Below the pieces are notes generated by a model. It made no database searches and was not told the origin of the DNA. It saw nothing but the letters and a program-made list of their open reading frames with translations. From assembly GCA_944325085.1 (NCBI GenBank), contig CALUYT010000062.1:1-40573 (forward strand): a DNA stretch of 40,573 bases, written 5' to 3'. The stretch is from Candidatus Gastranaerophilales bacterium. GTDB lineage: Bacteria; Cyanobacteriota; Vampirovibrionia; Gastranaerophilales; Gastranaerophilaceae. Shown here one piece after another: positions 5,976 through 40,043 of the stretch. The translations under genes were made by a program, and so were the position numbers. Positions within the stretch are counted from its first letter, which is position 1; the number at the start of each line of letters is the position of its first letter.

Positions 5976-6401
5976 ATGTCAAGTATTTATTCAGCATCTG
6001 CAGTTGGCGCTATGGTTGATCCAACAAAAGGTAGTTTAACAAATAGATCTCAATGTGCAAAAGAGCATTTTAAAAATAATTTTGCATTAGATGCAAAAAT
6101 GGCTTTAGCAGGTGCAGGTGGTGCTTATGTTGCACTGAAGAAACCTAGTGTAGCCGTAAATTTAGCAAAAGTTGTAGGTGAATTTGGTGCTAAAATTGTA
6201 AAATCTCTTGGTGGTAAAAATCTTGCTAAAAATATCTTGAAAAATCCATCTAAATATGGTGCTTATGGTCTTGCAGCGGCAGGTGCTTTATGGGTATTAA
6301 ATACAATTAGCAAACATGTATATAAAGCAGGTCAAATTGATCAAAAATATACAGACGCCGCAGCTATTGAATCTCAAACTAAAAATGTTATATTATATTA
6401 G
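5976..6401 (+). CDS. Hypothetical Gly/Ala-rich membrane-associated protein, 141 aa
   Basis: Not recognised. The N-terminus (MSSIYSASAVGAM) is not a classical signal peptide. Two Ala/Gly-rich hydrophobic stretches, about residues 42-52 (MALAGAGGAYVAL) and 93-108 (GAYGLAAAGALWVL), are separated by an amphipathic Lys-rich segment, so one or two short membrane helices or helical hairpins are likely. The start is supported by AGGTAGG about six bases upstream. It stands alone between two terminators. Its build (soluble N-terminus, Gly/Ala hydrophobic segment, Lys-rich flank) resembles the small protein at 39702, which suggests a lineage-specific class but not proven homology. Confidence 0.75.
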   Translation: MSSIYSASAVGAMVDPTKGSLTNRSQCAKEHFKNNFALDAKMALAGAGGAYVALKKPSVAVNLAKVVGEFGAKIVKSLGGKNLAKNILKNPSKYGAYGLAAAGALWVLNTISKHVYKAGQIDQKYTDAAAIESQTKNVILY

Positions 6402-30206: not shown

Positions 30207-30509
30207 ATGAAAAAATTTTATATTACATTTATTTTTATAATGTTTTCAGCGTTGTTAATGGCTAACGCTGAAACAATTAAAGTTAATCTGGGCAGTGATT
30301 ATATTCCGGAAAAAGATCCTGCAAAAGCAAATGCTATGTGCAATATTTATCCAAATGGAGCATATAAATGTTTTTGCAAAAATGGTCATTACGCAGGTGC
30401 AGCAAAGGATTACGTTTGGAAATCAACTAACCCGGAACCTGATGATAATATGCTAGATACATTTCCGTTATATGTACGTACTCAAAAGTGTTTAAAATTT
30501 AATAAATAA
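30207..30509 (+). CDS. Small secreted cysteine-containing protein, 100 aa
   Basis: Not recognised. A signal peptide (MKKFYITFIFIMFSALLMAN, cleavage after ANA at 21) leads to a mature domain of about 79 residues with four cysteines (45, 55, 57, 95), probably two disulfides in the periplasm or outside. CNIYPNGAYKCFCKNGHY is the most distinctive stretch. The protein ends basic (KCLKFNK). GAGGTG five bases before the ATG fixes the start. An in-frame open stretch extends upstream to 30068 but runs through the tRNA and its terminator, so it is not coding. No terminator is seen after it, and 199 bases separate it from the AAA+ gene. Confidence 0.8.
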   Translation: MKKFYITFIFIMFSALLMANAETIKVNLGSDYIPEKDPAKANAMCNIYPNGAYKCFCKNGHYAGAAKDYVWKSTNPEPDDNMLDTFPLYVRTQKCLKFNK

Positions 30510-30708: not shown

Positions 30709-32238
30709 ATGAGAATTGCAAGTATTCAAAGCGTAAATTATTACCCTAAAACAAATGTAACAAATACAATTAAAAATGATAATAACATGTCAGTCTCCGT
30801 CTTACGTGGAGGTATGCAAACATTACCTAATTATGGTTACGGTAGAGATTTGGTAAACAGAAAACAACCTGCTTTTACCAGTTCAATATCAAAAGCTGCA
30901 GTAGAACTTGCACAACAATTACCATTTGAAGAACGTTTAGCTTCATTATTTGAGGTTTTACATCATAATGAAATCATTGTAGCAGGTAAGGATTTTAATA
31001 GTGCACAAAAGGCGCTAAAAAAACATCTTGGTAAATTAAAACAAGTTATTCAAAAAGAAATTTTTATACCTGAAAACAAGCTTGAACATAATTATGCATT
31101 TATAAAAAATTTGGATGGAGATATTGAATTATTAAACATAAATGATAAAAATGTTACATATATTACAGGAGGTAAAACATATCACCTTGATCCGGGTAAT
31201 AGTTTTTATATTGTTAACAATGATACAATTCAATATGCAAATGATGTGATACATCTAAAAGAAAAACCGAAAGCAGATTTAAGCTTTAGCAGACCAATAT
31301 TTTCTAAAGTATATGATTTTACAGATGAAGTACAAAATGAAGTCGTAAAATTAAATAATAAAACCGTAGCAAAAAGAATATTAAAAGCAAATACGCCTAA
31401 TTCACCTGTTTCTTTTGCTAATATTGGAGGTCAATCAAAAGCAATTGAAGAGTTAAAAAGAGGTATAGTATTTCCTGTAAGATACCCTGCAAGTGCTACA
31501 GGTGAAGATATAACAAGAGGTTATATTTTATACGGACCACCTGGAACAGGTAAAACAGAACTTTGTAGAGCCTTAGCTAATGAAGCGAATATGGAATATA
31601 TGTATGCCAGTGGTACAGACTTTGAATCTAAGTGGTATGGCGAAGCTGAGGCAAATATAAGAGCTTGGTTTGATGAACTAAAAAACAAGCAACCTGCAAT
31701 AGGCGTAATCGATGAAATAGATAGTATTGGTAAGGAAAGAATGGATGCACAATATGCAGGCGATTCTGTTGTTAACCAAATTTTAACTTGTATGACTGAT
31801 CTTTATAATGAAAATGATGATGTATTTATAATTGGACTTACCAATAAGTACAGTTCACTTGATTCAGCGCTAAAAAGAGCTGAAAGGTTCAGTAAGCACA
31901 TATATATGGGACCACCTGATTTAGATGGAGTTAAAGAAATACTTAAAATTCATACAAGAAACAAAAAATTAGATGAAAATGTTAATTTTGAAGAACTTTC
32001 CAAAAAACTATTTGAAAATAAGGCTGTTGGTAGTGATATAAAATTTGTTACTAAGTTAGCAAGAGAAAATATGATGAACCGTCTTGGATTATATGAAAAA
32101 ATGGAAAATGGAACCTTTGTAGAAAGCGATATGTTAGAAGCAAAGATAAACCAAGAAGATTTCTTAAATGCAATTGAGTCATTTAAAGAACAACACAGGA
32201 CATCAACTCAAAGAAAACCAATTGGTTTTAATAAATAA
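30709..32238 (+). CDS. AAA+ ATPase with a lineage-specific N-terminal half
   Basis: 509 aa. The C-terminal half is a single classical AAA module: SFANIGGQSKAIEELKRGIV (linker), Walker A GPPGTGKT at 276-283, the pore-loop-like KWYGEAE, Walker B GVIDEID at 332-338, sensor-1 Asn in GLTNKYSSLD, and the SALKRAERFSKHIYM region, where a conserved Gly of the usual GRFD is Glu. This resembles FtsH, Vps4 or proteasome-ATPase modules, but no peptidase, TM segment or MIT domain follows. Residues 1-60 are Asn/Ser/Tyr-rich and look disordered (ending QPAFTSS). Residues 65-225 form an unknown alpha/beta domain. GAGGTG lies four bases before the ATG. A promoter with palindromes precedes it. It is probably an unfoldase or remodelling ATPase with an unknown target. 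Confidence 0.88.
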   Translation: MRIASIQSVNYYPKTNVTNTIKNDNNMSVSVLRGGMQTLPNYGYGRDLVNRKQPAFTSSISKAAVELAQQLPFEERLASLFEVLHHNEIIVAGKDFNSAQKALKKHLGKLKQVIQKEIFIPENKLEHNYAFIKNLDGDIELLNINDKNVTYITGGKTYHLDPGNSFYIVNNDTIQYANDVIHLKEKPKADLSFSRPIFSKVYDFTDEVQNEVVKLNNKTVAKRILKANTPNSPVSFANIGGQSKAIEELKRGIVFPVRYPASATGEDITRGYILYGPPGTGKTELCRALANEANMEYMYASGTDFESKWYGEAEANIRAWFDELKNKQPAIGVIDEIDSIGKERMDAQYAGDSVVNQILTCMTDLYNENDDVFIIGLTNKYSSLDSALKRAERFSKHIYMGPPDLDGVKEILKIHTRNKKLDENVNFEELSKKLFENKAVGSDIKFVTKLARENMMNRLGLYEKMENGTFVESDMLEAKINQEDFLNAIESFKEQHRTSTQRKPIGFNK

Positions 32239-39701: not shown

Positions 39702-40043
39702 ATGTCATTTAACAGTAGTGAATACAATTTAAGTAATCCTGCATTTACTGAAGATATTGGCAGATCATTTGGATTTAATCCAATGCCAATACCTCAATAT
39801 AACTACTTTGGAGGTTTAGGATATATTCCCGGGATAACAGGGACAATGGATAATGTAATTCTTAGGGGGCCATTAAAATCTGATATCGCGGATATTCCAA
39901 GACGTGAAAAAGATAAAAAAATCTGGACAAGTATATTTAAAGCCATTGCTTTAGTTGGTGCAGGCTTATTAACTTATAAATTTGGTAAAAAAATATTTTC
40001 ATTTTGTGCAGATAAATTAAAACATTTATTTAAAAAGAATTAA
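39702..40043 (+). CDS. Hypothetical single-pass membrane protein, 113 aa
   Basis: Not recognised. The N-terminal 70 residues are Asn/Ser/Pro/Gly-rich and probably disordered (NPAFTEDIGRSFGFNP, then GGLGYIPGITG). One membrane helix lies at about 76-92 (SIFKAIALVGAGLLTYKFG), flanked by Lys, with a short basic C-terminal helix (FSFCADKLKHLFKKN). There is no signal peptide, so a tail-anchored or cytoplasm-in topology is likely. AAAGG is the ribosome-binding site. The design (flexible N-terminus, Ala/Gly membrane segment, Lys-rich end) recalls the 141-aa protein at 5976, and the PAFT tetrapeptide recurs in the AAA+ protein. Confidence 0.75.
   Translation: MSFNSSEYNLSNPAFTEDIGRSFGFNPMPIPQYNYFGGLGYIPGITGTMDNVILRGPLKSDIADIPRREKDKKIWTSIFKAIALVGAGLLTYKFGKKIFSFCADKLKHLFKKN

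Follow-up and report, generated by a model that had tools for sequence, protein, structure and literature searches.

A single-ring Cdc48-like AAA+ ATPase from a bacterial order carries a two-part N-terminal leader that recurs on unrelated proteins

The AAA+ ATPase encoded at position 30709 of the window (by which we mean the whole 40,573-nucleotide stretch of DNA that was analysed) is, as judged from its sequence, a single-ring classical AAA+ protein that lies nearest to Cdc48/VCP, carries an uncharacterised N-domain and represents a new subfamily (Table 1). The protein opens with a two-part leader, in which a short conserved head and a phenylalanine-centred foot are joined by a variable polar linker, and a leader of the same kind is borne by unrelated protein families of the same order. 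We infer that the leader may be a lineage-specific sorting or docking tag.

Table 1. Positions within the window of the ATPase, of its segments and of the protein at 39702
Feature	Position	Strand	Basis
AAA+ ATPase gene, 509 aa	30709..32238	+	intact ORF
Leader head MRIASIQS (M-x-I-x-x-I-Q)	30709..30732	+	column 3 Ile 30 and Val 1 of 31; column 6 I/V/L 29/30; column 7 Gln 23/30
Asn/Ser/Thr/Tyr-rich variable linker (residues 9-53)	30733..30867	+	mean pairwise identity 0.17 over residues 10-50; mean column entropy with gap penalty 3.05 over residues 9-50
Leader foot PAFTS, Phe56 invariant	30868..30882	+	F 32/32; codons TTT 25, TTC 7
N-domain (residues 61-200), no known family	30889..31308	+	profile, Pfam and PDB searches
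AAA module with lid, Cdc48/VCP-like (residues 232-493)	31402..32187	+	PDB sequence match
Walker A GPPGTGKT (residues 276-283)	31534..31557	+	G276, G279, T280, G281 and K282 invariant in 16 sequences
Arginine-finger motif R-A-E-R (residues 390-393), Glu392 instead of Gly	31876..31887	+	alignment of 32 orthologues
C-terminal tail KPIGFNK with [IV]-G-[FY]	32215..32235	+	I/V 32/32, G 32/32, F/Y 32/32; Gly by all four codons
113-aa protein with NPAFTED	39702..40043	+	proposed echo of QPAFTSS, link unsupported

The ATPase module is intact, as had been predicted. A Pfam search of the ORF places the AAA domain PF00004 at residues 273-401 (E 3.5e-34), the single match above cut-off, with 15 P-loop models matching below it. 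The residues of a classical AAA protein are all kept: Gly276 and Gly279 to Lys282 of Walker A, together with Asp335 and Glu336 of Walker B, are invariant in 16 sequences, and Arg390 and Arg393 are present in all 32 orthologues. The module had also been called FtsH/Vps4-like, a description that gives way to Cdc48/VCP on closer comparison. The best PDB match of the module, over residues 232-493, is an archaeal VCP-like ATPase, the first rings of 5vc7 and 5g4g scoring 148.7 and 148.6 bits against it, and NCBIfam models rank in the order CDC48 (165 bits), PAN (163 bits; 162.6 to one decimal) and FtsH (155 bits). The protein is nevertheless a member of none of these three families, since its scores are far below their respective cut-offs of 802.65, 500 and 600 bits.

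Comparison with the individual families brings out both kinship and distance. The closest AAA module by sequence is that of Cdc48/VCP/VAT, but these proteins have two rings where the window ATPase has one (Pfam finds one PF00004 stretch, and no second ring, in its 509 residues), their CDC48 model is matched only far under cut-off, and the N-domain is unmatched: at the sequence level there is no Pfam match to the CDC48_N double-psi barrel in the whole ATPase (E <= 0.1) or in the N-domains of 16 members, and none to the MIT domain of Vps4 and katanin in the ATPase or the same 16 N-domains. A search of the window's own genome for paralogues, as suggested with the original prediction, returned three other AAA matches, the best of which is a 640-aa ORF taken to be FtsH. 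The two proteins have the classical AAA motifs in common and are 36% identical over residues 218-434, but the window ATPase has neither the M41 peptidase (Pfam) nor the transmembrane segments (hydrophobicity scan) of FtsH. Indeed, no peptidase of any kind is matched in it by Pfam or NCBIfam and no hydrophobic segment is found with a 19-residue window, confirming that neither a protease nor a membrane anchor is attached. PAN resembles the protein in its AAA module, its single ring and a conserved C-terminal tail, but the PAN cut-off is not reached and the tail reads [IV]-G-[FY], not the HbYX of proteasome-activating nucleotidases such as PAN. The predicted lack of an effector domain thus holds for the polypeptide itself, but the conserved [IV]-G-[FY] suggests that there may be a separate partner. 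The Glu that had been noticed in place of the arginine-finger Gly is present, and the six congeners nearest to the window protein share it (17-row alignment). At column 392, 22 of the 32 orthologues have Gly and 10 have Glu, and because Glu recurs in these 10 members and both arginines are invariant, the proposed change of ring geometry receives no special support.

Conservation within the family picks out the leader. N-termini were read in 46 members (the window protein, 15 relatives and the best 30 profile loci from the matches of 101 genomes); without identical or contained sequences 33 remained, and 32 distinct orthologues once one with an incomplete start was dropped; the divergent member L020 is outside this set. 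Mean pairwise identity among the 32 is 17% over leader residues 10-50, 36% over the N-domain and 57% over the AAA module. Within this barely conserved leader, Phe56 of the QPAFTSS stretch is Phe in every orthologue, more than chance would give, and it is one of only three invariant columns in residues 1-225, the others being Asn143 and Asn216. Its codon is TTT in 25 and TTC in 7, so that it is the peptide and not the DNA that is kept. L020 has Tyr in this column and an ISFGES stretch nearby (17-row alignment). The spacing between head and foot varies among orthologues. The leader is best restated as M-x-[IV]-x-x-[IV]-[QN] ... [IVPT]-[SNTA]-F-[TKG]-[GNSR], which bears out the idea of a meaningful short leader motif in a better formulation than the P-[AN]-F originally offered.

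The leader motif had further been proposed to be echoed in the protein at 39702. This echo is not supported by the sequences compared, though the leader Phe of the ATPase is real. The N-terminal survey that had been suggested, covering the first 70 residues of 330 own-genome ORFs, finds P-[AN]-F at chance frequency (5 occurrences, 4.3 expected). Exact PAFT occurs twice in these ORFs, in the ATPase and the 39702 protein (0.56 expected), and an apparent orthologue of the latter in a congener (L106:9114, by eye) reads PAYTED, with Tyr in place of the Phe. Two further small proteins of the window may be recorded here. One (5976-6401, MSSIYSASAVGAMVDPTKGSL...) has an apparent congener orthologue at L104:14376. 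The other (30207-30509), immediately downstream of a tRNA-Arg, is short, secreted-looking and Cys-containing, with an EGF match below cut-off (E 0.011).

The region to which the original prediction referred, 30709-31430, constitutes the N-terminal 240 residues of the ATPase, and its description as unfamiliar is upheld by the lack of a good Pfam or PDB match over ~230 residues. In the window member, Pfam matches nothing in the N-domain at E <= 10, NCBIfam offers no N-domain family, and the sole PDB sequence match has an E of 1.4. In a Pfam scan of the N-domains of 16 members, eight families match one or two members each, with a best E of 0.0075. The suggested fold prediction was obtained with single-sequence AlphaFold2, but at a pLDDT of 39.7 the fold is not modelled well. 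Taken as a whole, the earlier observation was largely right, above all about the intact AAA module, the unfamiliar N-domain and the leader Phe; the FtsH/Vps4 likeness is corrected and the PAFT echo lacks support.

Matches that extend into the N-domain are present in 16 of 59 genomes, the own genome included, and a profile built from the 16 members finds the N-domain (E <= 0.001) in 101 of 286 genomes and 21 of 50 genera of the order. Five of these matches are weak and fall in ORFs of 279-310 aa, and since in four genomes (G278, G097, G404, G145) such a weak match stands alone, family members are present in ~97 genomes. The remaining matches fall in ORFs of 477-587 aa, with one exception of 303 aa. 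Four of the five short ORFs (L260-L263) were rejected as family members on account of TPR-like and NHL-like parts recognized by eye, in agreement with Pfam for the one scanned. An hhalign comparison of the N-domain with these four gives 67.7% probability over 66 columns in the NHL stretch, and a possible propeller-blade-like stretch in the N-domain is a lead, not a finding. The outgroup genome G058 has no N-domain match, viral contigs contain no relatives of the ATPase, and a scan for close relatives in a wider contig set, based on six peptide patterns from the ATPase, gave one AAA-only match, in a Bacteroidetes MAG. Within these searches the family has so far been found in one bacterial order only, probably Gastranaerophilales (Melainabacteria/Vampirovibrionia). 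This assignment is suggested by small AT-rich genomes, by an RNase E that comes nearest to the cyanobacterial model and by the pattern of flagellar genes.

The two-part leader is, on comparison of N-termini, common to unrelated families of this order. Among 16 AAA-type stretches (L244-L259, with no ORF in L253 and one further stretch left out), six homologous ORFs of 447-463 aa (AAA group 2; L244-L248 and L257) start with M-[RK]-I-...-x-F-G-Y-N, in L248 behind an upstream ATG, and all six have [IVA]-G-[FY] near the C-terminus. A 493-aa ORF in L250 has both foot and tail, and foot-like stretches are present in L258, an AAA+M41 protein of 833 aa, and in L251, an AAA protein of 368 aa. No leader was seen in five of the stretches (L249, L254-L256 and L259), although in L254 and L259 the ORF chosen is not the AAA. 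The GH77 enzymes include a leaderless sister clan that is a natural control. Their sample, with an ORF in 29 of 30 loci, divides into a leader clan of 16, with the head in 15 and the foot in 16 (lenient pattern), and a canonical clan of 13, with the head in none and the lenient foot in two. A tree built without the N-terminal part separates the clans with an unrooted split support of 1.000; under midpoint rooting the long branch L177 falls on the canonical side. For the M16 peptidase, 30 loci yielded 28 usable N-termini (in L226 and L233 the longest ORF is another gene), of which 23 have the foot by a pattern set after looking and five do not; Phe occupies the aligned column in 20. PRPP synthetase bears the leader on its second paralogue only, in G046 and G041, and the two ORFs, which are 97% identical, probably represent one event. 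By eye, none of the 27 canonical PRPP synthetase ORFs printed has a leader (L204 had no ORF).

Single carriers add to this range. By Pfam they include a nucleotidyl transferase, RelA/SpoT, a DSP-type phosphatase, DHH and M16, with glycogen-synthase-like and transglutaminase-like proteins below cut-off, and 10 of the 20 carriers scanned have no Pfam match at E <= 0.01. One carrier is a 1051-aa AAA+M41 protein with no hydrophobic segment; such a segment is present in 4 of 34 carriers picked by eye. Two neighboring carriers of G046 (L057:9848-12346 and L057:12472-13659) have an unusually long N-terminal region in which the leader is followed by an apparent Sec signal or lipobox (by eye), and only the second exceeds the hydrophobicity threshold. 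A C-terminal membrane anchor is possible by eye on the leader-bearing GH77 proteins L149-L151 and L158, the own-genome GH77 being below threshold, and by threshold on L052:12112, a leader-bearing carbohydrate-enzyme paralogue.

The proteome-wide case that can be made from single sequences is modest. A first leader profile, trained on 16 own-genome carriers picked by eye and tested against shuffles, was applied to the held-out genome G046, from another family of the order, and to the outgroup G058. In G046 it identifies 11 of 348 ORFs at T>=9, against 3.25 in shuffles, and 16 at T>=8, against 5.25; in G058 the figures are 2 of 349 against 2.65 and 4 against 4.10. At T>=9 there are none of 114 in G161 (1.40 in shuffles), of 94 in G040 (0.75), of 81 in G035 minus its AAA (0.60) or of 16 in G047 (0.15). 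A second profile, trained on AAA and GH77 only and compared with whole-N-terminus shuffles at T>=8, finds 9 against 2.42 in the own genome and 11 against 2.92 in G046 (one of the 11 being a GH77 member), and the outgroup G058 is also in excess, at 6 against 2.36. When the second profile was tested more strictly, with hydrophobic N-termini removed, the G046 GH77 member excluded and head-fixed shuffles, the own genome showed no enrichment, with 6 against 3.34 at T>=10 (p 0.1) and 7 against 5.98 at T>=8. Only two of the five order sets stood out: G046, which gave 7 against 2.27 at T>=10 (p 0.009) and 8 against 3.97 at T>=8 (p 0.05), and G047, which gave 1 against 0.03 in a set of 15 ORFs. No ORF reached T>=10 in G040 or G035. 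In G161, none of the 77 filtered ORFs reached T>=5. Pooled, the order has 24, 22, 17 and 14 of 616 at T>=6, 7, 8 and 10, against 4, 3, 2 and 2 of 292 in the outgroups (p 0.03, 0.02, 0.03 and 0.07). Loose head and foot patterns and k-mer enrichment over sampled ORFs were set aside as weak, being diluted by signal peptides and spurious ORFs. With proteome-wide statistics this modest, the argument for the leader is carried by the evidence from orthologues and paralogues.

The explanation we favor, in which our confidence and our doubt are about evenly balanced, is that the protein is a single-ring Cdc48-type unfoldase with a sorting leader, an N-domain of its own and a docking tail. The two-part leader (head M-x-I-x-x-[IV]-[QN], polar linker, and foot x-[SNTA]-F-[TKG]-[GNSR] lying at the border of the folded domain) would be a sorting or docking tag, and a putative receptor reading it would direct the ATPase to the place, or along the route, that the other leader proteins share, among them peptidases, GH77 paralogues and other AAA proteins. 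The N-domain would choose the substrates and the ring would pull them, while the flexible C-terminal [IV]-G-[FY] tail would dock on a partner, perhaps a ClpP-like peptidase. The ATPase itself cannot be the general leader receptor, since its family is patchy (21 of 50 genera).

Alternatively, the ATPase could be an ordinary AAA+ remodeller with a fast-evolving, disordered N-terminus, in which Phe56 belongs to the N-domain fold and resembles other N-termini by coincidence, in sequence rich in Asn, Ser and Phe. The position of Phe56 at the N-domain border fits such a protein, as does the frequency with which loose patterns are matched by N-termini shuffled from these AT-rich genomes; but the head (residues 1-7) is conserved too, at a variable distance from the Phe, and coincidence does not readily account for AAA group 2 or for the contrasts between GH77 and between PRPP paralogues. 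We consider this account rather unlikely. The tail suggests a different division of labor, in which the ATPase would be a dedicated ClpP unfoldase that inserts its tail into the hydrophobic pockets of ClpP, the leader serving only as a substrate-recruiting or adaptor-binding arm. The [IV]-G-[FY] of columns 505-507, present in all 32 orthologues, and the [IVA]-G-[FY] of all six AAA group 2 ORFs resemble the conserved Ile-Gly-Phe motif of ClpX, and the available passages of PMC9035409 describe IGF loops of ClpX that dock at the H sites of ClpP. According to the same passages, however, the ClpX motif belongs to an AAA-domain loop, whereas here it is C-terminal; moreover, the third tail residue is Tyr in 10 of the 32. 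No ClpX model is among the best 25 of 40 NCBIfam matches listed for the ATPase. The tail is not seen on other leader carriers among those whose last 30 residues were printed, and [IVL]-G-[FY] is not enriched as a proteome-wide C-terminal tail. ClpP is encoded in 58 of 59 genomes, mostly in two copies, as in the own genome; but genomes without the AAA have two copies as well, and by eye copy number bears no relation to AAA presence across the 59. Docking on ClpP is thus a guess by analogy, and an ATPase dedicated to ClpP would seem improbable.

A third account keeps the leader as a signal and assigns it to export: the leader would be a type III-like export signal, and its carriers, the ATPase included, substrates of an order-wide non-flagellar type III-like apparatus. 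Type III secretion signals are N-terminal, polar and unstructured and are found on unrelated proteins. The leaders are likewise N-terminal and polar, 30 of the 34 by-eye carriers having no hydrophobic segment, but that of the window ATPase differs in its conserved Phe foot and Ile head. A cluster in the own genome (G000:C4:44993-50878; L096:4993-10878) encodes homologues of FliE, FliF, FliH and FlhA, with a 332-aa protein in the place of FliG, although flagellin was not found in 35 of the 36 genus genomes of the set, the exception (G013) being 6% contaminated. Of 24 genomes of the order that were tested, the own one (100%) among them, 20 encode a full-length FlhA with 66-93% identity to that of the own genome, and 18 have a second, more distant FlhA (37-40% identical; in G182 two pieces, 47% and 33%). 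The first FlhA is, however, a fragment in G053 and missing from G035, G039 and G049 (completeness 99%, 78% and 82%), and G035 and G049 still have the leader on the AAA. G035, lacking the gate and FliF, was discarded as a counter-example, as it has FliP and may reflect an assembly gap or partial loss. The outgroup G058, in which neither an export gate nor FliF or FliP was found, lacks leader enrichment in the first-profile and head-fixed tests, in keeping with an export role, but has the slight excess of the remaining test; G161, conversely, has a gate (46% identity) yet no leader excess (0/77 at T>=5; 0/114 at T>=9). The apparent Sec or lipoprotein signals after the leader of the two L057 carriers (by eye) argue against a single type III-like route, and the FliE homologue, a likely exported part, has no head. 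A type III-like route for leader carriers is therefore possible on the genes present, but as a full explanation of the leader we think it unlikely.

Incomplete flagellar gene sets in members of Gastranaerophilales are described in the portions consulted of PMC4040986 and PMC5877343, one of which infers that flagella were lost in members of this order. Some further ORFs may be recorded here. A 494-aa ORF of the own genome (G000:C42:18338-19438) matches only the C-terminal part of FlhA, at 26% identity, and all 24 order genomes tested have ORFs of 473-520 aa that match in this way, the matched part being interrupted in some by an in-frame stop. Some 8 kb away from that cluster, L095:16402-17457 (C4:36402-37457 of the own genome) encodes a protein to which Pfam assigns no family above cut-off; like the product of L047:5208, it starts with M-G-[IL]-[SA]-A-S-Q-A-R.

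The sorting reading of the leader has a broader form, which we put forward tentatively and with more doubt than confidence. Throughout the order, the leader (M-x-I-x-x-[IV]-[QN] ... F-[TKG]-[GNSR]) would be dedicated to sorting proteins into an undescribed route or compartment. Duplicated enzymes would supply it, together with AAA unfoldases and peptidases of its own, and the non-flagellar type III-like apparatus might provide the passage. An N-terminal tag that is common to paralogous enzymes of unrelated families would imply a sorting system, and to our knowledge few bacterial sorting signals have such breadth. Among the literature matches listed, the opening lines of the abstracts contain no description of such a sorting signal in this group. 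If the proposal is true, the destination of a set of proteins in these mostly uncultured gut bacteria would become open to test, as would the purpose of the retained non-flagellar export genes.
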